Positions 1,936 to 21,099 of a DNA stretch of 21,099 nucleotides are shown piece by piece. The DNA comes from Saprospiraceae bacterium (GTDB taxonomy: Bacteria; Bacteroidota; Bacteroidia; Chitinophagales; Saprospiraceae): positions 1-21,099 of the forward strand of contig JAGOIB010000018.1 in the NCBI GenBank assembly GCA_017995875.1. The letters run 5' to 3'. Both the position numbers and the translations under genes were made by a program. Within the stretch, counting starts at the first letter, position 1. Each line of letters begins with the position of its first letter. Below the pieces are notes generated by a model. It was given only the letters and a program-made list of their open reading frames with translations, made no database searches and was not told where the DNA came from.

Positions 1936-3840
1936 ATGAACAAGAGAAGATGTTTGCTATTCCTTTTGCTGACAGGTTTGTTATCTACTCCGGCATGGTC
2001 CCAGTCCAAAACTGATAGCCTGTGGAATGTATGGAATGATCCTACTGAAGCGGACACTAGCCGATTAAAAGCAATCCAAAGATTAACCTGGCCAATGCTC
2101 AATACCAACATGGACAGCGCTTATCTGCTAGCGAAAATGCAGCTTGATTTTGCAACAGCCAAGAATAATGAGAAGTGGATTGGTAAGGCCCTCTACAATA
2201 TTGCTTCCTATCATTACCTCAAAAGTGAATATCCCCAATCCATATCCTTCTATAATCAAAGTCTCGAGATCCGTAAAAAAACGGGTGATCTCAAAGGAGA
2301 AGCCGCGATCTATGGTAACCTGGGACTCATCTACGGGGACCAGGGAAACGACCTGAAGGATCTCGAGTACCAGTTGAAAGCCCTGAAGATCAACGAACAG
2401 ATCCGGGATACGGCCGGTATGACGAGCAACTATAGCAACCTTGCCGGTCTTTATCAGAACCAGGAGGATAGCACCAAAGCCCTGGAATACTATGAGAAAG
2501 CTTTGAACATGTTTAGTGTCAGCGATGATCTACAGAGTATCGGCCTTCTCTACAATAATATCGGCAATATGTACAGAGGCTATCATATGTTTGAAAAAGC
2601 CCGGTGGTACCTGATGGAAAGCCTTTGTATCCGAACAGAACTGCAGGATATACTGGGCATGGCCATCACCTATATCAATCTGGGCACGCTATACATCAGC
2701 ATGAAGGATTATGCCCAGGCGAAAACATACACCATACAAAGCATTGAGTATTTCAAGAGACTAAACGATAAGGCAAGCCTGGCCAATGGGTATTACAATC
2801 TTGGGGATATCGCGAGAAGGGAGCAACAATACCAGGAGGCGTTGAAATGGTGTGCTGCATCATTGGAGATTGCGCGGTCAACGAATAAAGTGAACATTGA
2901 AGCAGCTGATTGCTCCTGCCTGTATCGCACGTACAAGGAATTGGGTGATCCTGCTAAAGCACTATCCTATTTAGAAGAATTTGTCGACCTCAATGATAGT
3001 CTTCGAAACGATGAGCTCAAGCTGGAAATGAGCCGGTTGAAATTTGAAAAAGAAAATCTGACGGATAGTATTTCACGCGTCCAGGAATTGAATCAGCTCA
3101 ATGATCTGCATGAATTGGAGATGCAAAAGCGCGGACGTCTCACCAATATCGTTTTAGTGGCAGCGATCGGATTCCTGGTTTTAATGATGATTTTCCTGAG
3201 CAGGATGTTAGTTCTTCAGCGCAATTCCTCCTCGCTCAAACGAAAAACCCAGGAACTTGAAAATCAACAACTGGTCAATGAAATTTCCTTGCTAAAAACA
3301 CAGGTTAACCCCCACTTCCTGTTTAACAGTCTCAGTATCCTCTCCTCCCTGGTAAGAATCGATCCGGACCTTTCTGAACGATTTATCGATCAATTGTCCC
3401 GTTCCTACAGATATATCCTTGAACAGAAAGATCAATCGCTTGTCACCTTACGCACCGAACTCGGATTTATCGAATCCTATTCCTTCCTGTTGAAAATTCG
3501 TTTTGAAAATAAATTCAGTGTAGATATTCAATTGCCTGATTACATCCTTGATAAATATAAGATAGCTCCGCTGACCCTGCAGCTCTTGATTGAAAACGCC
3601 GTTAAGCACAACCGGATGTCAGTAAGTGAACCTCTCATAGTCACTATATCCGTTGAGGTAGGCCAGATGTTGATTGTTAAAAATAAACTTCAACCCAGGA
3701 GTACACCTGCCGTATCTACAGGTGTCGGTTTGCAAAATATTATGGACAGGTATGCACTCCTGACCGACCGCCCGGTATGGGCGGGTGAATCAGACGAAAA
3801 TTTTGTTGTCAAAATTCCACTTTTGGATTGCACTGCCTGA
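1936..3840 (+). CDS. TPR-repeat sensor histidine kinase (LytS/YehU type)
   Basis: This 634-residue protein is the sensor of a two-component pair with the LytTR regulator 45 bases downstream. It has a signal peptide (residues 1-23, ending TPAWSQ), a periplasmic region of about seven tetratricopeptide repeats (about 80-355, with recurring motifs such as YGNLGLIYGDQGN, YNNIGNMYRG and YYNLGDIARREQQY), a coiled-coil linker, one membrane helix (about 403-425) and a cytoplasmic kinase. The kinase part carries the His_kinase signature QVNPHFLFNSL with the phospho-acceptor His460, an ATP-binding N box (LLIENAVKHN, Asn554) and a G box GVGLQNI (596-602). It should autophosphorylate on His and pass phosphate to Asp55 of the partner. 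The TPR input suggests sensing of a protein or peptide ligand in the periplasm, which is inference. The upstream terminator implies its own promoter, but I could not place one. Confidence 0.93.
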   Translation: MNKRRCLLFLLLTGLLSTPAWSQSKTDSLWNVWNDPTEADTSRLKAIQRLTWPMLNTNMDSAYLLAKMQLDFATAKNNEKWIGKALYNIASYHYLKSEYPQSISFYNQSLEIRKKTGDLKGEAAIYGNLGLIYGDQGNDLKDLEYQLKALKINEQIRDTAGMTSNYSNLAGLYQNQEDSTKALEYYEKALNMFSVSDDLQSIGLLYNNIGNMYRGYHMFEKARWYLMESLCIRTELQDILGMAITYINLGTLYISMKDYAQAKTYTIQSIEYFKRLNDKASLANGYYNLGDIARREQQYQEALKWCAASLEIARSTNKVNIEAADCSCLYRTYKELGDPAKALSYLEEFVDLNDSLRNDELKLEMSRLKFEKENLTDSISRVQELNQLNDLHELEMQKRGRLTNIVLVAAIGFLVLMMIFLSRMLVLQRNSSSLKRKTQELENQQLVNEISLLKTQVNPHFLFNSLSILSSLVRIDPDLSERFIDQLSRSYRYILEQKDQSLVTLRTELGFIESYSFLLKIRFENKFSVDIQLPDYILDKYKIAPLTLQLLIENAVKHNRMSVSEPLIVTISVEVGQMLIVKNKLQPRSTPAVSTGVGLQNIMDRYALLTDRPVWAGESDENFVVKIPLLDCTA

Positions 3841-3885: not shown

Positions 3886-4641
3886 ATGAAGACGATCATT
3901 ATCGAAGATGAAAACCTCACCGCGAAACGCCTGGAAAGTTTGCTGCACAAATACGATCCTGCATTACAGGTGGAAGCCATTTTGCCATCTGTCCGGGATG
4001 CAGTACAATGGTTTGGTTCCAATCCGGAACCCGACCTGATTTTTATGGATATCCATCTGGAAGATGATCTTGCTTTCAAGATTTTTGAGCAAGTCAAGAT
4101 CCATGCCCCGGTGATATTTACTACAGCGTATGACGAGTATATGATCCAGGCCTTTAAAGTCAACAGCATAGACTACCTGCTCAAGCCGGTCAATTATGAT
4201 GAACTCGTACAGGCCATCGAGAAATTCAAATCACTCAAAAAACAGTTTGCTCAACCCAATCTCGAAACACTGCTGAAATCCCTTGGACATAAAGAACCGG
4301 AGTATAAAAGTCGTTTTATGATTACGGTGGGTACAAGGATCAGGAGTATTGAGACCACGGAGATCGCCTATTTTTATTCAGAGGAGAAACTGACCTTTAT
4401 GGTTACCAAAGAAGGGCAGAACCTCCCGATTGATTTCAGTCTCGACAAACTCACATCGATGCTCAACCCACATGATTTCTTCAGGATCAGCCGGCAGTTC
4501 CTGGTGAGCTTTCAATCCATTCAGATTGTTCACTCGCACATCAAGGGCAAACTCAAATTAGAGCTCATACCAAAGACAAAGTTTGAGGTGCTGGTCAGCG
4601 GAGACCGCATGACCGATTTCAAAGAATGGCTTGGAAGATAA
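3886..4641 (+). CDS. LytTR-family response regulator
   Basis: This 251-residue protein has an N-terminal receiver domain (about 1-120) and a C-terminal LytTR DNA-binding domain (about 148-250). The receiver keeps the key residues: acidic pair Glu7/Asp8, phospho-acceptor Asp55 (LIFMDIHL), Thr79/Thr80 in IFTTAYDE, and Lys100 in DYLLKPV. The LytTR part contains the expected hallmarks: ITVGTRIRSI near its start, IAYFYSEEKLTFMV, DFFRISRQFLVSF and a closing GDRMTDFKEWLG. The upstream TPR kinase is the obvious partner. Target genes cannot be read from the sequence; neighbouring T9SS-cargo and lipoprotein genes are possible targets but nothing proves it. It ends 21 bases from the convergent lipoprotein gene, with no convincing terminator hairpin in the gap. 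Confidence 0.95.
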   Translation: MKTIIIEDENLTAKRLESLLHKYDPALQVEAILPSVRDAVQWFGSNPEPDLIFMDIHLEDDLAFKIFEQVKIHAPVIFTTAYDEYMIQAFKVNSIDYLLKPVNYDELVQAIEKFKSLKKQFAQPNLETLLKSLGHKEPEYKSRFMITVGTRIRSIETTEIAYFYSEEKLTFMVTKEGQNLPIDFSLDKLTSMLNPHDFFRISRQFLVSFQSIQIVHSHIKGKLKLELIPKTKFEVLVSGDRMTDFKEWLGR

Positions 4642-6300: not shown

Positions 6301-6369
6301 ATTAGGCTAATAACATAGGGATTGAATAAGCATTTTTGATTTGATGATCAACGGGAATGATGATGAAGG

Positions 6370-13967: not shown

Positions 13968-14056
13968 ACCAATAATTTTTTAATGGTTATGACAATCGCC
14001 TATCCATGGCTTGGCTGGATCGGCCCAATAAAAAGTGGTATGGTTCTAAAAATAAA

Positions 14057-14776
14057 TTACTGAGGTTTGTGACAACAACTTACCTCCGTTGATTCTTTAT
14101 CCATCGAAGGGCTCAGATAGGGTATTCCAAGATTCATTCCCCGTAATATCAACATCACTGCCATGACTCCAACAAAATACGGAACAGCCTTGTTTATTTT
14201 TTGTCTTGCTACACCTGATATGAGGTGACCAAATAGCATCAAACCTGCCATGACAGGCATGGTGCCTAAACCAAACGCAAACATCAAAAGGACACCGTGC
14301 CAGGTATGCATTGTAGCCATGGCTGCTGCGATAGCAACATAGACAAGGCCACAGGGAAGAAGACCATTTAACAATCCAATCGGAAATAAAGATGATACCG
14401 GTTTGGGAGCACTCAGTAATTTGCCCAGGGATTTTTGCACCCACCTGTTCAATTGCGCCAGCCAAATAATCCTGGAGGAAAACGAAAACCTTGAGACGAT
14501 AAATAACAGTATCAATATACCGGCAGCAATAGAGATGACTTGCTGCAAGCCCCACAATCTGAATTGCTGACCAAGAAAACCAAACGCCAATCCCAGGATA
14601 CTATAGGTAAGAGCCCTGCCAATATTATACAATCCTATCCCAATATATTTGTGAACACCCGTATACGACCTTACCGGTAATGCCAATGCAATGGGCCCAC
14701 ACATGCCAATACAATGAAAACTCCCCAAAAACCCGATGGAAAGACCCGTTAATATGCTTAGGTAGATTGCACTCAT
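14057..14776 (-). CDS. SafE/TauE-like membrane protein at the end of the cbb3 locus
   Basis: The 239-residue protein has about six membrane helices in two related halves and belongs to the sulfite exporter TauE/SafE-like (DsbD-like) group that often ends Bacteroidota cbb3 loci. It starts with a helix containing FHCIGMCGP (Cys22, Cys26) and repeats a related motif GLLPCGLVY (Cys142) in the second half, the arrangement of DsbD-type membrane domains. A C-terminal SCCHKPQ tail adds two Cys and a His, which may bind metal. In the cbb3 setting the most likely role is copper or thiol handling for oxidase assembly (related genes have been linked to copper supply), but sulfite export cannot be excluded. 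It is the last gene of the locus, separated from ccoH by a heptamer array that begins one base after its ATG on the plus-strand side. Confidence 0.82.
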   Translation of the reverse strand: MSAIYLSILTGLSIGFLGSFHCIGMCGPIALALPVRSYTGVHKYIGIGLYNIGRALTYSILGLAFGFLGQQFRLWGLQQVISIAAGILILLFIVSRFSFSSRIIWLAQLNRWVQKSLGKLLSAPKPVSSLFPIGLLNGLLPCGLVYVAIAAAMATMHTWHGVLLMFAFGLGTMPVMAGLMLFGHLISGVARQKINKAVPYFVGVMAVMLILRGMNLGIPYLSPSMDKESTEVSCCHKPQ

Positions 14777-14777
14777 T

Positions 14778-14965
14778 GAAAAAGTTTCGAGTTTACAGTT
14801 TCGAGTTTACAGTGTCGGGTTTGCAGTGTCGAGTGTCGAGTTTGCAGTTTACAGTTTTGGATTTATTATTTCGAGTGTATAGTTTCATTTTAACTGTTTA
14901 TGAGTCATAATTTTTGAATACTGAATTGCTATTTTTTCTCGAAACTCAAAACTCGCCACTCGAAA
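14778..14965. repeat. heptamer tandem-repeat array between the SafE-like gene and ccoH
   Basis: On the plus strand, consecutive 7-base units begin at 14785: TTTCGAG, TTTACAG, TTTCGAG, TTTACAG, TGTCGGG, TTTGCAG, TGTCGAG, TGTCGAG, TTTGCAG and TTTACAG, then more degenerate units up to about 14931. From 14938 to 14965 four units run in the opposite sense: CTCGAAA, CTCAAAA, CTCGCCA, CTCGAAA. The last one touches the TAG stop of ccoH (14966-14968). The gap is 189 bases, exactly 27 units long. No promoter or terminator is visible in it. Confidence 0.85.
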
Positions 14966-15403
14966 CTATTCAACAAACACACTCTCTTCCTTATAGAATT
15001 CCTTCCCACCATTCTTCCATTTGATTCTCGCCTTATACATTCCTTTCAACAAACTGCTCTTTGGAATCGTGCGCCTGTTAGACCCGTTTGGTTCAATTGC
15101 CAATTGCACATCCTTGCCCTTTGAATCGTTTCTCAGCAGTTCAATATTACCTGATTCGAGGCTTTCAAAAGTGCCCGGAGGCAATGTAATCACTACTTCA
15201 AGTAAAGTCTGGCCGACAAGGTTGTTGGTCGACACATTCTCCAGGTTCTGCCTGGCATCGATCACATCCTGGTATTCCAGTTCTTTCTGATAGTAATTGT
15301 CATCGATCATCTCATTGGTCTGCATGGACGCATAAAAAACCATCCCCAGCATCACTACCAGAAAGACGACGATGAAGATTGTTAGTTTATGTCCCCAATT
15401 CAT
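14966..15403 (-). CDS. ccoH: FixH/CcoH-type cbb3 oxidase assembly protein
   Basis: The 145-residue protein has the FixH/CcoH layout: a short N terminus (MNWGHK), one membrane helix (about 7-27) and a periplasmic domain of beta strands. The family motif around residues 28-50 is present as NEMIDDNYYQKELEYQDVID, with the conserved DNYY-and-Lys pattern that follows the helix. Family members help assemble and stabilise the cbb3 oxidase. Gene order (after ccoG, before the SafE-like gene) matches the usual cco/fix assembly cluster. Both flanking gaps are made of 7-base repeats; the stop codon TAG is followed without any spacing by repeat units. The upstream array occupies the place where a ribosome-binding site would lie. 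Confidence 0.9.
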   Translation of the reverse strand: MNWGHKLTIFIVVFLVVMLGMVFYASMQTNEMIDDNYYQKELEYQDVIDARQNLENVSTNNLVGQTLLEVVITLPPGTFESLESGNIELLRNDSKGKDVQLAIEPNGSNRRTIPKSSLLKGMYKARIKWKNGGKEFYKEESVFVE

Positions 15404-15606
15404 TTTAGTTTCGAGTTTCGAGTTTACAGTTTCGAGTTTACAGTTTCGAGTTTACAGTTGGCAGTTAGCAGGTAACACTTAATATTAAATTATATTTTTC
15501 ATTTTTCATTTTTCATTTTTCATTTTTCATTTTTCACTTTTCACTCTTCACTTTTCACTCTTCACTTTTCACTCGATACACGACACTCGACACTGCAAAC
15601 TCGACA
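15404..15606. repeat. double heptamer array between ccoH and ccoG
   Basis: The plus-strand array from 15409 to about 15471 reads TTTCGAG twice, then TTTACAG and TTTCGAG alternately, ending with TTGGCAG and TTAGCAG. After a short AT-rich break, an unbroken lattice of 16 units runs from 15495 to 15606: TTTTTCA six times, then CTTTTCA and CTCTTCA alternately, then CTCGATA, CACGACA, CTCGACA, CTGCAAA and CTCGACA. It abuts the ccoG stop (TAG at 15607-15609). The gap is 203 bases, exactly 29 units. Confidence 0.92.
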
Positions 15607-17010
15607 CTATTTAAACGGTCCTAAAAATTTCGTCTTCACCGTTTGAATCCGCTGCCCGTTACTATAGACACCAATCGATAACGAATTGCTTCGTTCATGG
15701 ATTTCCTCTTTTGGAACGATCAGGAAAAAAGTAAAATCATTGAGGGCTTCCTTTTTCAAAAGCATCTGTTGCGCGCCGATGAGTTTAATTTCCCCGTTGA
15801 TACCCTCCACTTTCAATTCTACAGGAATCTCCTTATTTGTTTTATTGATGATTTTAGCTTCAAACAAGTTACTTAATTTACCTCCTTCCACTTCCTGGTA
15901 TAATTGACCTTTCGCCCTTGTAATATGGGTATCTACTGTTTTTCTGGTGACAATCATGACGGTCATTGCAGCAATTAATACCAACAATAAACCGCTGTAG
16001 GCTTTTACCTTGGTATTCACAATGAAAGGGGTGCCATTGTGAATCTGATTTTCAGAAGCATACCTGATCAATCCTACAGGCAACCCGACTTTAACCATGA
16101 CCTCATCACAAGCATCAATACAAGCAGTACATCCTACACAATCCATCTGCACTCCGTCACGAATGTCAATCCCGGTAGGACAAACCATGACACATTTTTT
16201 ACAATCGACACAATCTCCAAGGGTGCGGGTTTCACCTTTTTTGAAACGGCCTCTTTCTTCACCACGCCTGTAGTCATAAGAAATCTGCATCGTGTCTTTG
16301 TCAAACATTACGCCTTGCAATCGTCCATAGGGGCAAACAGTGGTGCAGACGATTTCTCTCACGAAGGCAAACACCGAATAAAAAAGAAATGTAAAAACCA
16401 GCAATCCAACCAGCAATCCAATATTCTTGGATAACGGTTCGCCTATAAGCTTTACAACTTCATCGATACCGATGATGTAGGCAAGAAAGGTATGCGCGAT
16501 CAGGAAAGAAAAGATCAGGAATACTGTATGCTTTACTGTTTTCTTCCAGATTTTCTCAACCGTCCATCCTCCATCATTCAATACTTTTTGTCTTCCGGGT
16601 GAACCCTCGATCATCCACTCAATCCGTCTGAAAACAAATTCCAGGAAAACGGTCTGCGGACAAGCCCATCCACAGAATAACCGTCCATAGATGACCGTAA
16701 ACAATACAATAAAGATGATAAACGAGATCATCCCTATCGCAAAAATGAAAAAATCCTGCGGCCAGAAGATTTTCCCAAAGAGGATAAACTTGCTGTCGAT
16801 AATGTTGATCAGGAAAAGTGGCGAACCATTAATCTTGATCAGGGGCAGTGTGAAGAAGACAAGTAAGTACACATAAGAAACCACTGATCGGTATTTGTAG
16901 AATTTACCGGATGGCTTAAGGGCATAGATCCAGTTTCGCTTACCGGTTTCAGTAACACTACTGACCCGGTCGCGAAAGGTCTCTGCATGCAATAATTCGT
17001 CTTCTGTCAT
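15607..17010 (-). CDS. ccoG: CcoG/FixG-type iron-sulfur protein for cbb3 oxidase assembly
   Basis: This 467-residue protein has five or so membrane helices and a ferredoxin-like cluster domain. CGWACP (Cys113, Cys117) and CTTVCP (Cys222, Cys226) are the membrane-associated Cys pairs of the family; two ferredoxin [4Fe-4S] motifs follow: CVDCKKCVMVC (Cys267, 270, 273, 277) and CVGCTACIDAC (Cys291, 294, 297, 301). The C terminus (about 350-467) is the Ig-like accessory domain seen in CcoG/RdxA. Reported roles include copper reduction for the oxidase CuB site. It begins one base after the ccoP stop, so the two are translationally close. The stop codon runs directly into the repeat array. Confidence 0.95.
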   Translation of the reverse strand: MTEDELLHAETFRDRVSSVTETGKRNWIYALKPSGKFYKYRSVVSYVYLLVFFTLPLIKINGSPLFLINIIDSKFILFGKIFWPQDFFIFAIGMISFIIFIVLFTVIYGRLFCGWACPQTVFLEFVFRRIEWMIEGSPGRQKVLNDGGWTVEKIWKKTVKHTVFLIFSFLIAHTFLAYIIGIDEVVKLIGEPLSKNIGLLVGLLVFTFLFYSVFAFVREIVCTTVCPYGRLQGVMFDKDTMQISYDYRRGEERGRFKKGETRTLGDCVDCKKCVMVCPTGIDIRDGVQMDCVGCTACIDACDEVMVKVGLPVGLIRYASENQIHNGTPFIVNTKVKAYSGLLLVLIAAMTVMIVTRKTVDTHITRAKGQLYQEVEGGKLSNLFEAKIINKTNKEIPVELKVEGINGEIKLIGAQQMLLKKEALNDFTFFLIVPKEEIHERSNSLSIGVYSNGQRIQTVKTKFLGPFK

Positions 17011-17011
17011 T

Positions 17012-18145
17012 TTATTTTTTCATCAAAGTATCCGGCTGAGCCGCTGTTACTGCACTTGTATCAGGTGTTGCTGCAGCAGGAACGTACAATTCGCCTTGTT
17101 TTTCTTTTGCATCCGGTGGATTGGTGCCTTTCAAGGTAAGCACATAATTCACCACTTGAGCTATCTGAACAGGCGAGAGTTGTTCTTTCCATGAAATCAT
17201 CCCTTTCTCAGGATATCCATACTTCACTGTTTTGAAAAGATCCTTCAACGCACCACCATGGATCCAGTAATCATCTGTAAGGTTAGGTCCTACCAGTCCA
17301 CCACCATCGGTTTTGTGGCAAGCTGCACACAAGGTCACAAATGTTTTCTTGCCCGCATCAAGGTCAGCTCCAGTCATCACGGTAACACTGTTTTCATCCA
17401 CGGCATTTGCCTGGGTCTTCAGGAATTCATCATGCTTTTGCTCGGCGACGGCTACTGCATTTTTATATTCCTCTATCTGCATAGGCGCAGATTTGGCGAT
17501 GTGATAGCGATACAGATACCCTGCACCAAAGAGGATGGTGATGATAAAAGCTGTGGTAAACCATGGCGGAATGATGTTGTCCAACTCACGGATACCATCA
17601 TAACTATGGCCTGTATCTATTTTATATTCTTCCTCGATAGGTTTAAAGTTCATGGCAGCCCATTTTTCCTTAAACCATGTCAATGGATCACGGGTGCCAA
17701 CAGGACTTTCTTCCTTGCCATACATTTTCTGAATGAAATCATTCGTCTTATGTGCAAAGAAGAGGATAAGGATCAGTTCAGCGCTGATGACACACAACAA
17801 CAAAATGGACATGGCATTAGATGACAACCCTGGTGTGGGTACTGTCGGTGTTGACTGTGCCATCAGGGATGTGCTCATGAGCAACAAGGCGAATGGGATA
17901 AGCACCCTGGTATTGCCTGACTTGATTTTAAATTCATAAAACCGCTTGGCTGTAGTAATAAAGGTGTTGGATAGTATCAGGATCGGTAACAGCAGAAAGA
18001 CTGCAAAGATGACCAGGAGCATATTGATGTCCATAGCACCCTTAGGAGCTGCTGAGACAGGTGCATTCTGACCATAGGAGACAGACCAGGTCAGGAGCAT
18101 GACAACACTTAAAATCGTTTTCATATGTTTTGATATACAATTCAT
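17012..18145 (-). CDS. ccoP: cbb3-type cytochrome c oxidase subunit III (CcoP), mono-haem
   Basis: The 377-residue protein carries one class I cytochrome c domain (about 258-340) with CAACH (Cys273, Cys276, His277) and a likely axial Met316 in KGMISW. Classical proteobacterial CcoP has two haem sites; this one has a single CxxCH. N-terminally there is a signal-like hydrophobic stretch (10-25), helices at about 39-60, 80-95 and 113-132, and another at about 195-213 (IPPWFTTAFIITILFGAGYLYRYH), preceded by YDGIRELDNIIPPWF, the conserved CcoP N-terminal domain motif. A second start at 18124 would begin right at MKTILSV and is equally plausible. It passes electrons from cytochrome c toward the CcoO haem. 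It sits between ccoQ (9-base gap) and ccoG (1-base gap). Confidence 0.93.
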   Translation of the reverse strand: MNCISKHMKTILSVVMLLTWSVSYGQNAPVSAAPKGAMDINMLLVIFAVFLLLPILILSNTFITTAKRFYEFKIKSGNTRVLIPFALLLMSTSLMAQSTPTVPTPGLSSNAMSILLLCVISAELILILFFAHKTNDFIQKMYGKEESPVGTRDPLTWFKEKWAAMNFKPIEEEYKIDTGHSYDGIRELDNIIPPWFTTAFIITILFGAGYLYRYHIAKSAPMQIEEYKNAVAVAEQKHDEFLKTQANAVDENSVTVMTGADLDAGKKTFVTLCAACHKTDGGGLVGPNLTDDYWIHGGALKDLFKTVKYGYPEKGMISWKEQLSPVQIAQVVNYVLTLKGTNPPDAKEKQGELYVPAAATPDTSAVTAAQPDTLMKK

Positions 18146-18154
18146 GATGGATGA

Positions 18155-18316
18155 TTAGTCTTGAAGTGGAAGGTTTTCCATGTGTTCGATTTCTTTTTTA
18201 TCGATGCTGTAGATCCAGATCATCACACCGGTAAAAAAAACAACAAACATCACAAGTGAAATAATGGGGTAAATACTGACCCCTGCTATTTGTTCCAGAT
18301 AACTTGAAAATTTCAT
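18155..18316 (-). CDS. ccoQ: CcoQ-like small subunit of the cbb3 oxidase
   Basis: This 53-residue protein is short and easily missed. It is read from the ATG at 18316 (MKFSSYLEQ) to TAA at 18155-18157. It has one hydrophobic helix (about 14-37, PIISLVMFVVFFTGVMIWIYS) and a charged C terminus DKKEIEHMENLPLQ, the plan of the CcoQ/FixQ family. CcoQ stabilises the oxidase complex in other organisms. It lies five bases after ccoNO and nine before ccoP, the normal CcoQ position, so membership is strong even though the sequence itself is poorly conserved. Confidence 0.88.
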   Translation of the reverse strand: MKFSSYLEQIAGVSIYPIISLVMFVVFFTGVMIWIYSIDKKEIEHMENLPLQD

Positions 18317-18321
18317 GTTCG

Positions 18322-20454
18322 TTATTTTTTAGGGTTAGCAGTAGTTACTTTGATATCGGTCCCCAATCGCTGGAGATAAGCGATGAGGGCTATGACTTCG
18401 CGCGAACTTGCAATCTCGATTTTATCCGCCTTGAGATTGGTGGCGATGGCATCCGCTTGTTTCTTCAGATCGTCATTGGCTGTCGCCTCATATCCTTTCG
18501 GATACGGTACGCCCATCTTGCGCATGGCATGTATCTTGGAATTAGTGGTACTGATATCGAGATCATCCTCAAACATAGTCTGGTAGGGTGGCATGATAGA
18601 TCCGGGGACCATCGAGGTCGGATCATACATGTGATTGAAATGCCAGCTGTTTGGATATTTTCCACCAACCCTTGCCAGGTCCGGACCGGTACGTTTACTT
18701 CCCCACTGGAAAGGATGGTCGTACACAAACTCACCTGCTTTGGAATACTCTCCATATCGTGTTACTTCATATCGGAATGGACGAATCATCTGTGAGTGAC
18801 AGTTGTAGCAACCTTCGCGCAGATAGATATCACGTCCTTGAAGTTCAAGAGGCGTATAAGGCTTGACGGATGCAATCGTTGGAATATTTGATTTTACAAG
18901 AAACGTCGGCACTAATTCAAACAGGCCACCGATCCCGACAACGACAAGACTTAAGGTCAAAAGTAGTATTGGTTTCCGCTCAATGACACTGTGCCAGAAA
19001 CTTCCTTTCGGAGAAACATATCTTTTCTCCAGCGGTGGAGCTTCAGCGGATTCGAATTCTAAGAAACTACCTGCCTTCGCGGTTTTCCATAGATTATAGA
19101 TCATCAGGATCACACCGATGAGGAAGATCGTTCCTCCAAGAGCCCTGAGCACATAGAATGGAATGATCGTTTGTACCACATCAATAAACTGATATTGCAG
19201 TTGTCCTTCAGGTGTGAAGGCTTTCATCATAAAATACGTGCGGAAAGCACTCCAGTACATCGGAATCGCATACAGTAATATCCCAAGTGTGCCGATCCAG
19301 AAATGCGTACCGGCCATCTTTTTGGAATAAAGTTTTGTATTGAACATTTTTGGGATAAGCCAATACATCATTCCAAAGGTTAGAAATCCATTCCACCCGA
19401 GAGCGCCAATATGCACGTGGGCTACTGTCCAGTCACTATAGTGGGAGATGGCATTGACGTTTTTGAGGGACAACATAGGTCCTTCAAAGGTGCTCATACC
19501 ATAAGCGGTGACAGCCACCACAAAGAATTTTAAGACGGGATCTTCTCTTACTTTATCCCAGGCACCACGCAATGTGAAAAGGCCGTTAAGCATTCCTCCC
19601 CAGCTTGGGAGGATCAGCATGATCGAAAAGGCAGTACCTAATGATTGCGCCCATTCGGGTAATGCTGTATATAACAAGTGGTGAGGGCCTGCCCATATAT
19701 AGAGGAAGATCAAACTCCAGAAGTGTACGATACTAAGACGGTATGAGTACACCGGACGCTCAGCTGCTTTCGGCAGGAAGTAATACATCAAACCCAGGTA
19801 AGGTGTGGTAAGGAAGAAGGCAACAGCATTATGTCCATACCACCATTGCACAAGCGCATCCTGCACACCGGCATACCACGAATAACTTTTGAAAAGGGAA
19901 ACCGGAAACTCCATGGAATTGACAATATGCAGCATCGCTACCGTCACCCATGAAGCAATAAAAAACCATATCGCTACATACAAGTGACGTTCACGCCTGG
20001 TGAGTATAGTGCCAAACATATTGATACCAAAGACCACCCAAATCAAGGTGATCAGGATATCAATCGGCCACTCCAACTCTGCATATTCCTTGCCGGTGGT
20101 GATACCCATCAACAGGGTTACCGCCGCAAGGACGATGATCGTCTGCCATCCCCAGAAATGTATGTTGCCCAGTTTTTTACTCCACATAGGCGTCTTGACC
20201 AATCTGGGTAATGCATAGTAGATGGCAGTGAAAATGCCATTACCCACAAATGCAAAGATGACTGCATTGGTATGCACAGGCCTGAGCCTTCCAAACGTCA
20301 GGTAAGGAAAATACTCACCAAAGTTTAATACAGGGAAGGCCAGCTGAAAGGCAGCAATGACGCCAAGCAACATTCCCACTGCACCCCAGGTGATGGTTGC
20401 AATTGCAAACAACCTCGGGAGCTTGTTGTCGTAGTAAAATTTTTCTAATTCCAT
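18322..20454 (-). CDS. ccoNO: fused cbb3-type cytochrome c oxidase subunits I and II (CcoNO)
   Basis: The 710-residue protein joins the catalytic CcoN subunit (about 1-460) to the CcoO cytochrome c (about 490-710). In CcoN, about 12 membrane helices carry the haem and copper ligands: His61 (low-spin haem), His208 (WYGHN, CuB), His258 and His259 (AGPHHL, CuB), His346 (high-spin haem) and His348 (low-spin haem) in AHVHIG. Tyr252 in LYIWAGPHH fits the Tyr cross-linked to a CuB ligand. After a linker and a membrane anchor (about 496-520), the CcoO part has EGCYNCHSQMIRP (Cys549, Cys552, His553) with axial Met621 in SIMPPY. CcoO is normally a separate protein. The complex reduces oxygen to water with proton pumping, usually at low oxygen. 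It is followed at 5 bases by ccoQ. Confidence 0.97.
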   Translation of the reverse strand: MELEKFYYDNKLPRLFAIATITWGAVGMLLGVIAAFQLAFPVLNFGEYFPYLTFGRLRPVHTNAVIFAFVGNGIFTAIYYALPRLVKTPMWSKKLGNIHFWGWQTIIVLAAVTLLMGITTGKEYAELEWPIDILITLIWVVFGINMFGTILTRRERHLYVAIWFFIASWVTVAMLHIVNSMEFPVSLFKSYSWYAGVQDALVQWWYGHNAVAFFLTTPYLGLMYYFLPKAAERPVYSYRLSIVHFWSLIFLYIWAGPHHLLYTALPEWAQSLGTAFSIMLILPSWGGMLNGLFTLRGAWDKVREDPVLKFFVVAVTAYGMSTFEGPMLSLKNVNAISHYSDWTVAHVHIGALGWNGFLTFGMMYWLIPKMFNTKLYSKKMAGTHFWIGTLGILLYAIPMYWSAFRTYFMMKAFTPEGQLQYQFIDVVQTIIPFYVLRALGGTIFLIGVILMIYNLWKTAKAGSFLEFESAEAPPLEKRYVSPKGSFWHSVIERKPILLLTLSLVVVGIGGLFELVPTFLVKSNIPTIASVKPYTPLELQGRDIYLREGCYNCHSQMIRPFRYEVTRYGEYSKAGEFVYDHPFQWGSKRTGPDLARVGGKYPNSWHFNHMYDPTSMVPGSIMPPYQTMFEDDLDISTTNSKIHAMRKMGVPYPKGYEATANDDLKKQADAIATNLKADKIEIASSREVIALIAYLQRLGTDIKVTTANPKK

Positions 20455-20523
20455 GTTCTGTATTCCGTGTTTGTTATGATTGATTTATTTTGATTGTATG
20501 ATTTTTAAATGATTAGCTTATTA

Positions 20524-20545
20524 GGTTATATGGTTATAGGTTATA
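20524..20545. repeat. short GGTTATA repeat in the ccoNO leader
   Basis: GGTTATA occurs three times at 20524-20530, 20532-20538 and 20539-20545. The last two are adjacent and the first is set off by one extra base. It is a smaller, less regular relative of the other heptamer arrays in the cbb3 gaps. Confidence 0.5.
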
Positions 20546-20576
20546 TTTAGTTTGTCCTTATTTTGTATTATTTCAC

Positions 20577-20618
20577 TGCCCACTGAATACCGATTACCGA
20601 ATACCGAATACCGATTAC
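20577..20618. repeat. heptamer array overlapping the ccoS stop codon
   Basis: On the plus strand six consecutive 7-base units run from 20577: TGCCCAC, TGAATAC, CGATTAC, CGAATAC, CGAATAC, CGATTAC. The last unit overlaps the ccoS TAA stop (20615-20617), so part of the reading frame is made of repeat. Confidence 0.85.
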
Positions 20619-20770
20619 TCATCTTCTTTTTTAGTATCATCGAATAAGATTCGCCTGGCCGGAGAAAAGTCATCATCAAACTGCCCGTCCCGCACACTCC
20701 ACATAAAGGCAACCAGAAAGCCGCCTGCGATGCAGATACTTACCAGGAGTAGGAGAATAATGACACTCAT
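20615..20770 (-). CDS. ccoS: CcoS-type cbb3 oxidase maturation protein
   Basis: This 51-residue protein is read from the ATG at 20770 (MSVIILLLLVSICIAGG) to TAA at 20615-20617. It has one N-terminal membrane helix (about 3-23), then FMWSVRDGQFDDDFSPARRILFDD. The segment WSVRDGQFDD is the family signature of CcoS (WxxRxGQFDD-type), which in other bacteria is needed to insert cofactors into the oxidase. The start is set directly at the base adjoining a heptamer array; no Shine-Dalgarno is evident. It lies between ccoI and ccoNO, its usual place. A 63-residue frame on the same strand (20521-20712) overlaps it but is a shadow. Confidence 0.92.
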   Translation of the reverse strand: MSVIILLLLVSICIAGGFLVAFMWSVRDGQFDDDFSPARRILFDDTKKEDE

Positions 20771-20910
20771 TTAAGTTAGTAGTTAGTTATTAGTAGTTAG
20801 TAGTTAGAAGTGAGTAGTTAACAGTTATTATTAGTGAGTTGTGAGTTTTGAGTTTTAATCGTTAATCGTAAATCGTAAATCGTCAATTGTCAATTGTCAA
20901 TTGTTTTAAG
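20771..20910. repeat. 20-unit heptamer array between ccoS and ccoI
   Basis: The whole gap is a perfect 7-base lattice on the plus strand: TTAAGTT, AGTAGTT, AGTTATT, AGTAGTT, AGTAGTT, AGAAGTG, AGTAGTT, AACAGTT, ATTATTA, GTGAGTT twice, TTGAGTT, TTAATCG twice, TAAATCG twice, TCAATTG three times, TTTTAAG. It begins at the base next to the ccoS ATG and its last unit contains the ccoI stop codon (20906-20908). Four unit families follow each other without a phase break. Confidence 0.92.
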
Positions 20911-21099
20911 TTAATTTATATCGCTTGGCAAACATCTGTGTTAATCCGTAAGTAATGAGGATAATCGATATCGAACTACATGGCATCAGGATCGCTGCGA
21001 TGATAGGGGACAATGTTCCTTGCACCGCGAAATACAAGCCAATGATGTTGTAAAATATGGATATTCCGAAACTAAAAAGGATGATCCTCTTGCCGGACT
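20906..21099 (-). CDS. ccoI: C-terminal end of CcoI/FixI copper-transporting P1B-ATPase, 5' partial
   Basis: The frame is open from the right window edge and reads SGKRIILFSFGISIFYNIIGLYFAVQ and onward to the stop at 20906-20908, about 63 codons. The two terminal helices (YNIIGLYFAVQGTLSPIIAAILMPCSSISIILITYG) match the C-terminal membrane helix pair of P1B-type ATPases of the FixI/CcoI type, including the characteristic AAILMPxSSxSI motif. The complete protein would pump copper for cbb3 oxidase assembly. Its position ahead of ccoS and ccoNO is the standard cco gene order. The identification rests on only the last part of the protein, so the ATPase and metal-binding domains cannot be examined. 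Confidence 0.88.
   Translation of the reverse strand, partial: SGKRIILFSFGISIFYNIIGLYFAVQGTLSPIIAAILMPCSSISIILITYGLTQMFAKRYKLT

Follow-up and report, generated by a model that had tools for sequence, protein, structure and literature searches.

We report arrays of tandem 7-base units (heptads) in the four long gaps of a cbb3 oxidase operon, which lies on the minus strand of a 21,099-nucleotide stretch of Saprospiraceae DNA (GenBank GCA_017995875.1, contig JAGOIB010000018.1, positions 1 to 21,099; the whole stretch is called the window below). Arrays of this period also occur in relatives, essentially between genes, and they are polarised: hairpins with AGT-type heptads on the left and ACT-type heptads on the right outnumber the opposite order by 36 genomes to 1 and, in a second collection, by 87 stretches to 3. 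A polarity this strong and simple is a constraint on any explanation, and it frames the question as one of two possibilities: either the order of the arms matters to transcription, or it is a trace of copying. Bacterial heptamer repeats have been reported for decades, with no accepted reason for their period or their place. They are a known bacterial kind, already in Bacteroidetes (PMC4679880; this source and PMC4692102, PMC3733652 and PMC6006769 are cited throughout from the parts available). What is new, as far as we have seen, is that the arrays are polarised and that their units turn over while the arrangement stays the same; the polarity rule was not found described in the open-access literature searched.

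Period-7 arrays in the gaps of the cbb3 operon

Lag identity was scored as z against 300 dinucleotide shuffles, at lags of 2 to 15. At lag 7 it was 0.54 in gap 1 (14777-14965; z +8.5), 0.77 in gap 2 (15404-15606; z +13.9), 0.50 in gap 3 (20455-20614; z +5.7) and 0.77 in gap 4 (20771-20905; z +10.9), while the 12 other window gaps tested gave lag-7 z between -1.3 and +1.5. Besides lags 7 and 14, no lag in this range exceeded z 2.7 in the four array gaps. Tandem Repeats Finder (TRF) called period 7 in all four, and by both measures the gaps qualify as heptanucleotide tandem repeats as a general kind. The sequence-only reading had placed heptamer runs in these four gaps and not in the others, and both statements hold; its figure of up to 20 units in a row is too high, since the longest single TRF run has about 11 copies (15496-15573) and a count of 20 needs diverged units and spacer. 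Within gap 3 the strong array is confined to about 20585-20618. Units had also been said to differ between gaps while the period is shared. The period is indeed common to all four, yet gaps 1 and 2 share the 14-mer AGTTTCGAGTTTAC, and reverse-complement heptads close both.

The operon and its gaps are listed below; Pfam supports five of its genes. The four gaps exceed 100 bp and the remaining junctions are only 1-9 bp.

14057..14776, minus strand: gene for a DsbD_2-type membrane protein, last of the run (Pfam PF13386, 162.5 bits)
14777..14965: gap 1; left, AGTTTCG/AGTTTAC heptads; middle degenerate; right, reverse-complement heptads (CTCGAAA and similar)
14966..15403, minus strand: fixH (ccoH; Pfam PF05751, 59.9 bits)
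15404..15606: gap 2; left, AGT heptads; short AT spacer; right, TTTTTCA/CACTTTT and CGACACT-type heptads
15607..17010, minus strand: ccoG (Pfam FixG_C and Fer4 domains)
17012..18145, minus strand: ccoP (Pfam FixP_N and cytochrome domains)
18155..18316, minus strand: ccoQ-like frame of 53 amino acids, named by position and look, with weak counterparts in the related genomes G310 and G272
18322..20454, minus strand: ccoN-ccoO fusion (Pfam COX1 and FixO on one frame)
20455..20614: gap 3; left, degenerate GGTTATA-type stretch; right, TACCGAA/TACCGAT heptads
20615..20770, minus strand: ccoS-like frame of 51 amino acids, named by position, with counterparts in G310 and G272 70-71% identical
20771..20905: gap 4; left, AGTTAGT-type heptads, grading into AATCGTA and AATTGTC heptads at right
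20906..21099, minus strand: 3' end of the upstream gene, ccoI by position; open frame, with G310/G272 counterparts 79-85% identical

In gaps 1 and 2 the AGT heptads come first and the reverse-complement heptads last. Gap 2 has the strongest array and the strongest hairpin of the four, with an RNA fold z of -6.33 (0 of 200 shuffles as good) and an inverted score of 22 against a shuffle maximum of 17. For gap 1 the minus strand folded as RNA at z -3.10, but the plus strand folded as DNA reached no more than z -1.67; its inverted score was 16 against a shuffle maximum of 13, and its direct score 18.

Read by eye in the mRNA sense, AGT/GGT/TGA/GAT heptads follow the stop codon and ACT/ACC/ATC heptads precede the next start in the four gaps. 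Purine content as the only measure was dropped, since the AGTTTCG units of the window are not purine-rich, and triplets were counted instead. Outward AGT/GAT/TGA against their complements numbered 12:0, 9:2, 10:0 and 15:0 in the left halves of the four gaps and 8:6, 19:1, 3:3 and 7:4 in the right halves, which fits the order seen by eye in all four left halves and clearly in one of the four right halves. Five array-free gaps of the window gave mixed counts, one of them equally strong (14:2 at 6301).

In three of the four gaps a unit resembles its neighbours most, as local duplication predicts: gaps 2 and 4 go from a likeness of 0.77 at lag 7 to 0.37 at lag 56, and gap 3 declines with distance from 0.50 to background. 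By eye, the stop codons of fixH and ccoG are often in phase with the heptads, as if supplied by the array; the same is often seen at array-bearing gene 3' ends in G310, G272 and Larkinella.

Polarity of the arrays

In G310, G272 and two Larkinella genomes, 37 of 40 array-boundary cases were purine-rich outward (28 cases at gene 3' ends, with 827 such boundaries overall, and 12 at 5' ends, with 995). Counted by triplets, outward AGT/GAT/TGA exceeded the complements at 45 of 50 untied 3' boundaries and 28 of 34 untied 5' boundaries of array gaps; at the 3' boundaries of array-free gaps the figure was 320 of 614. Adjacent arrays were scored as RY (purine-leaning, then pyrimidine-leaning) or the opposite, YR. 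Within 250 bp, all sets together gave 16 RY, 1 YR and 5 other pairs (n = 22); a Larkinella pair at 29726/29787, YR by purines yet with GGT on the left and ACC on the right, was tallied against the rule. Opposite-strand matches to ACTCTTCA at most 100 bp apart in the two whole Larkinella genomes were minus-plus ten times and plus-minus never (by eye).

The polarity was also recovered by a search free of gene calls, for three anchored heptads on the left and three complement-anchored heptads on the right. Hairpins of the AGT-left/ACT-right kind were present in 36 of 395 Bacteroidota genomes and the opposite, ACT-left order in 1; GAT-left/ATC-right was found in 11/385, and AGT-left/ACT-right with period 8 in 9/395. 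Backwards controls, whose counts are our own reading of the result tables, gave 1/395 for TCA-left, 7/395 for TGA-left, 1/395 for the period-8 pattern and 0/385 for CTA-left, so that left-hand triplets with one purine (ACT, TCA, CTA) are rare. The positive genomes are not independent events, since certain hairpins recur among them, as in G364 and G390; G310 had no match to the hairpin patterns, and G272 was not noticed among the positives.

In IMG/VR contigs, 87 stretches were AGT-left/ACT-right and 3 the opposite, several stretches coming from the same contigs. The G+C content of 83 stretches ranged from 0.34 to 0.70, and they therefore likely span more than one phylum. Arrays lying at least 150 bp from the search pattern were counted in 80 of the stretches. 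Of these 193 arrays, 56 fell in genes according to a crude caller and were dropped; 92 of 125 boundary cases were purine-rich outward, and array pairs within 150 bp were 29 RY, 1 YR and 15 other (n = 45). Two IMG/VR contigs filed as viral, 3300005578_000008 (L302, L322, L335) and 3300033153_015561 (L286, L323, L339), carry many heptad hairpins.

Two simpler descriptions were tried and rejected. A fixed AGT anchor does not suffice, as GAT-left (11/385) and TGA-left (7/395) hairpins also occur and many G310 and G272 arrays are built of GGC or AATTACG units. Wide spread of one unit is rejected as a general explanation, though gaps 1 and 2 share a unit: 20 genomes around G310 had no match to the 25-base AGTTTCG/AGTTTAC pattern of the window (at most 2 mismatches), and 12 genomes had none to GAGTTTCGAGTTTCGAG (at most 1 mismatch). 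Several heptad hairpins, in the Larkinella samples L166-L205 and in L040 at 12154 and 16017, do have a loop-side core TTGGCTGACGCA...TGCGTCAGCCAA in common, and a hit in the unrelated-looking genome G694 has a similar core.

Array gaps were rarer between divergent genes (3/48 against 211/911 overall, P = 0.0025) and commoner between convergent genes (14/48 against 127/911 overall, P = 0.004). Stems in array gaps had a purine-rich 5' arm 18 to 5 (Larkinella 13 to 1, G272 5 to 2, G310 0 to 2). Array-free intergenic hairpins share the polarity bias, more weakly: in G310, G272 and Larkinella their 5' arm was purine-rich 198 to 104, and stems in coding stretches showed no such bias (61 to 73).

Period, place and gap history in relatives

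Relatives were drawn from a CcoNO search, with 80 named loci kept from at least 590 matches, and from a CcoG search; the closest found were G310 and G272 (CcoG 76%, CcoNO 87-88%). One array caller was used throughout (score at least 12, periods 4-13). Period-7 arrays numbered 27 in G272 (664 kb), 18 in G310 (698 kb), 16 and 7 in the two Larkinella genomes (400 kb each) and 20 in the 80 cbb3 loci (1.48 Mb); the Larkinella density is not unbiased, since those samples were in part chosen around known matches. Period 8 came second, with 8 arrays in G272 and 9 in G310, and other periods reached at most 5 in every set. The trait is patchy, as G305 had no period-7 arrays in 200 kb and a Flavobacterium had 2 in 200 kb, with other periods nearly matching.

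Period 7 is thus enriched and essentially intergenic in the relatives sampled. On the question, raised in the sequence-only reading, of whether it stands above other short periods, period 7 dominates in most of these genomes, with period 8 following well behind in G310 and G272. As to place, arrays lie nearly always between genes: 7 of 72 overlap a called open reading frame (ORF) by more than half. Each of the seven lies about 75 bp or less from a called ORF end, and one sits at a contig edge. Clustering in neighbouring gaps was weak: four genomes together had 10 neighbour pairs no more than 6 kb apart, where 5.5 were expected (P = 0.033), and none of the four was significant alone. Period 8 forms a second, rarer class of arrays and hairpins with the same AGT-left/ACT-right order, seen in the G310 and G272 samples and in nine genomes.

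All long gaps of the operon do carry arrays, as the sequence-only reading had it, yet the arrays are partly the cause of that length, since in relatives three of the four are short, at about 40-50 bp, and lack arrays. G310 and G272 both have some 45-50 bp between ccoG and fixH and some 40-45 bp between ccoI and ccoS; between fixH and dsbD_2, G310 has about 48 bp, and the contig of G272 stops inside fixH. The array caller found no array in these short gaps of the relatives, and the three gaps were therefore inflated on the side of the window. The fourth, from the end of ccoS to ccoNO, spans about 220-250 bp in G310 and G272, where heptads are present with units unrelated to those of the window; for G272 this was judged on the readable part only, and in G310 one of two arrays lies inside a called reading frame that extends ccoS. 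The ccoS-ccoN gap is array-bearing in three lineages, each with different units.

Explanations of the arrays

The explanation we favour, and would put just short of an even chance, is that these arrays are slippage-grown DNA kept in the order of a terminator-like hairpin. They would be intergenic tandem duplications that grow by 7-base steps, each unit being copied from its neighbour and then drifting, which would account for unit sequences that turn over fast while the period stays constant. The period, place, unit turnover and polarity of the arrays and the folds of gaps 1 and 2 are observed, and origin by local duplication is fairly well supported; that slippage is the copying step, and any function, we infer. 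The 7-base copying process proposed in the sequence-only reading fits what was found, with period 7 dominant in most relatives sampled, likeness falling with distance in three of four gaps and differing units in the ccoS-ccoN gap. That proposal overlooked the inverted arms of gaps 1 and 2, and plain slippage leaves the polarity unexplained.

Arrays are retained almost exclusively between genes, and most have one arrangement: AGT (GGT, GAT, TGA) heptads follow a stop codon, and ACT (ACC, ATC, TCA) heptads stand ahead of the next start. On either strand this gives a purine-leaning 5' arm and then a pyrimidine-leaning 3' arm, often foldable. Stem strength is independent of arm order, and a bias in that order therefore points to a process that works in the 5'-to-3' direction, transcription being the simplest candidate. 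The order may be kept through an action at the transcript level, as a two-way terminator, an attenuator or a hairpin protecting mRNA ends. A pyrimidine-rich 3' arm gives a weak RNA-DNA hybrid, which would aid release. In the cbb3 operon, the arrays would uncouple the expression of fixH, the DsbD_2 gene, ccoS and ccoNO from that of the preceding genes.

A broader proposition, about which we are distinctly more hesitant, is that polarised heptad arrays are a widespread and undescribed bacterial intergenic class whose grammar does not depend on sequence: AGT-type heptads, then a spacer, then ACT-type heptads, almost invariably in this order, rebuilt in the same gaps with new units. If this is true, grammar rather than sequence would be conserved, and a hairpin with a purine 5' arm and a pyrimidine 3' arm would matter to transcription both ways. 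The polarity itself also suggests that arrays with no sequence in common may be equivalent.

Several results weigh against the explanation we favour. Two of the window gaps gave little sign of a fold: gap 3 had an RNA fold z of +0.57, which is not significant, and inverted similarity not beyond shuffles, and gap 4 had z -2.08, with 4 of 200 shuffles as good, and an inverted score of 8, inside the shuffle range. Unit likeness in gap 1 is flat with distance (0.45-0.57). None of the four gaps holds a terminator-like site (a G+C-rich stem plus a T run); the 6 such sites in 14000-21099 all lie outside them, against 5.9 expected, and an Rfam search gave no match. The arrays sit within an operon, a place in which complete termination would be unexpected. 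Elsewhere, the 5' boundaries of array-free gaps are biased too (501 of 808; 501 to 307), the 80 cbb3 loci are mixed by eye (4 fit, 3 contrary, the rest undecidable), and the array gaps searched for stems in the closest relatives comprise 6 stemless and 2 with stems of pyrimidine-rich 5' arm in G310, and 5 stemless, 5 leaning R and 2 leaning Y in G272. TAACTGA repeats in a Microcystis sample, which stand in both orientations at start codons (PMC4679880), are a further misfit.

Neutral slippage debris is the strongest rival, possible though appreciably less probable than the explanation we favour. Under it, slippage would favour a heptamer step, arrays would survive where they are harmless, and the polarity would reflect what gene ends tolerate, for example purine-rich DNA being kept off start codons or stop codons being supplied by the array. 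The same data on period, place and turnover agree with it, as do the stop codons often in heptad phase at gene 3' ends (by eye) and the two of four window gaps without a fold, and Mrazek (2007, cited in PMC4679880) had put forward slippage in 7-nt steps. Tolerance at gene ends accounts less well for the polarity in gaps between convergent genes (by eye), which have no start codon close by, for its recovery in the pattern search independent of gene calls, and for its presence in array-free intergenic hairpins.

We consider it unlikely that the arrays go back to repetitive extragenic palindrome (REP)-like hairpins which an HUH (Y1, RAYT-type) transposase has spread or shaped, the heptads being decayed or duplicated stems. 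Units vary between gaps and genomes and their likeness falls with distance, which local duplication fits better than insertion. Some Larkinella heptad hairpins do have a common core, but it is absent from the window gaps, and its two near-matches in the window lie in genes. Y1_Tnp was present in 10/10 array- or hairpin-bearing genomes against 1/4 taken as array-poor, counts that lean towards an association, in a comparison of 14 hand-chosen genomes of unequal size for a domain that is widespread. A Bacteroidetes subclass of these transposases with atypical flanking structures has been described (PMC6006769).

It is very improbable that the gaps are contingency tracts whose copy-number changes phase-vary the cbb3 operon: repeats near operon start codons are the usual site for such tracts, but in relatives the arrays are spread over many gaps, and the units are diverged rather than pure. 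An assembly artefact is scarcely credible, for although short-read assemblies fail at repeats, such arrays occur in named Larkinella records, arrays of the same polarity lie on very long contigs (G429:C1 and G554:C1 have matches past 3.6 Mb), and the flanking genes have same-order counterparts in G310.

Relation to known repeats

Cyanobacterial short tandemly repeated repetitive (STRR) sequences are short tandem heptamers between genes, with fixed units. Their likeness to the arrays of the window is by description only (short intergenic heptamers); STRR units are fixed and cyanobacterial, whereas the proteins of the window match Bacteroidota genomes.

The sequence-only reading knew of no described Bacteroidota family, a statement that has to be corrected, since TAACTGA arrays are reported from five Bacteroidetes as well as Beggiatoaceae and cyanobacteria, with other heptamer repeats beside some of them (PMC4679880). 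Like the arrays of the window, these have 7-base units, are intergenic, abut gene ends and are patchy between lineages. In Maribeggiatoa and Flexibacter litoralis most sets are "forward" (the ACT-bearing strand) before start codons, and one set in F. litoralis is reversed right after a stop, an arrangement that agrees with the polarity rule of the window (PMC4679880). The family differs in having one fixed unit and direct repeats, a single inverted case being noted in the available part of that report. Two TAACTGA units with at most 2 mismatches had no match in the window, whose arrays are not of this family.

Long simple sequence heptanucleotide repeats (Mrazek, 2007, via PMC4679880 and PMC4692102) share with our arrays the commonest period and a proposed slippage step. 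As cited in PMC4679880, that work made heptamers the commonest class and proposed polymerase slippage with a 7-nt step, with the idea of a polymerase footprint; in the available parts of both citing papers, no convergent arms or polarity rule are stated for it. The GGGAATC and GGGGA(C/T)T heptamers of Xanthomonas and Nostoc are intergenic, include some convergent inverted pairs, and form arrays that vary in length and sequence between relatives; they are G-rich and quadruplex-forming, with one unit per genome group (PMC4692102), whereas the units of the window are not G-rich. REP sequences, in the GTAG and CGTC superfamilies, are intergenic hairpins, present in many copies, to which roles in termination or mRNA stability have been ascribed, and the CGTC type is reported from Bacteroidetes (PMC3733652). 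They are palindromes of 20-40 bp with a tagged end (PMC3733652), whereas in the window no common core was seen and the stems have period 7.

Other observations in the window

The AATTGTC/AATCGTA array of gap 4 (20865-20900) contains repeated sigma-70-like matches on the minus strand (TTGACA, 17, TACGAT), which are probably due to chance because Bacteroidota promoters differ from this consensus. In the operon, ccoN and ccoO are joined as a single frame of 710 amino acids (18322-20454). Outside it, a tetratricopeptide repeat (TPR) protein with a His_kinase domain is encoded at 1936-3840 (Pfam) and is followed by a frame of 251 amino acids (3886-4641) resembling, by look, a LytTR-type response regulator.

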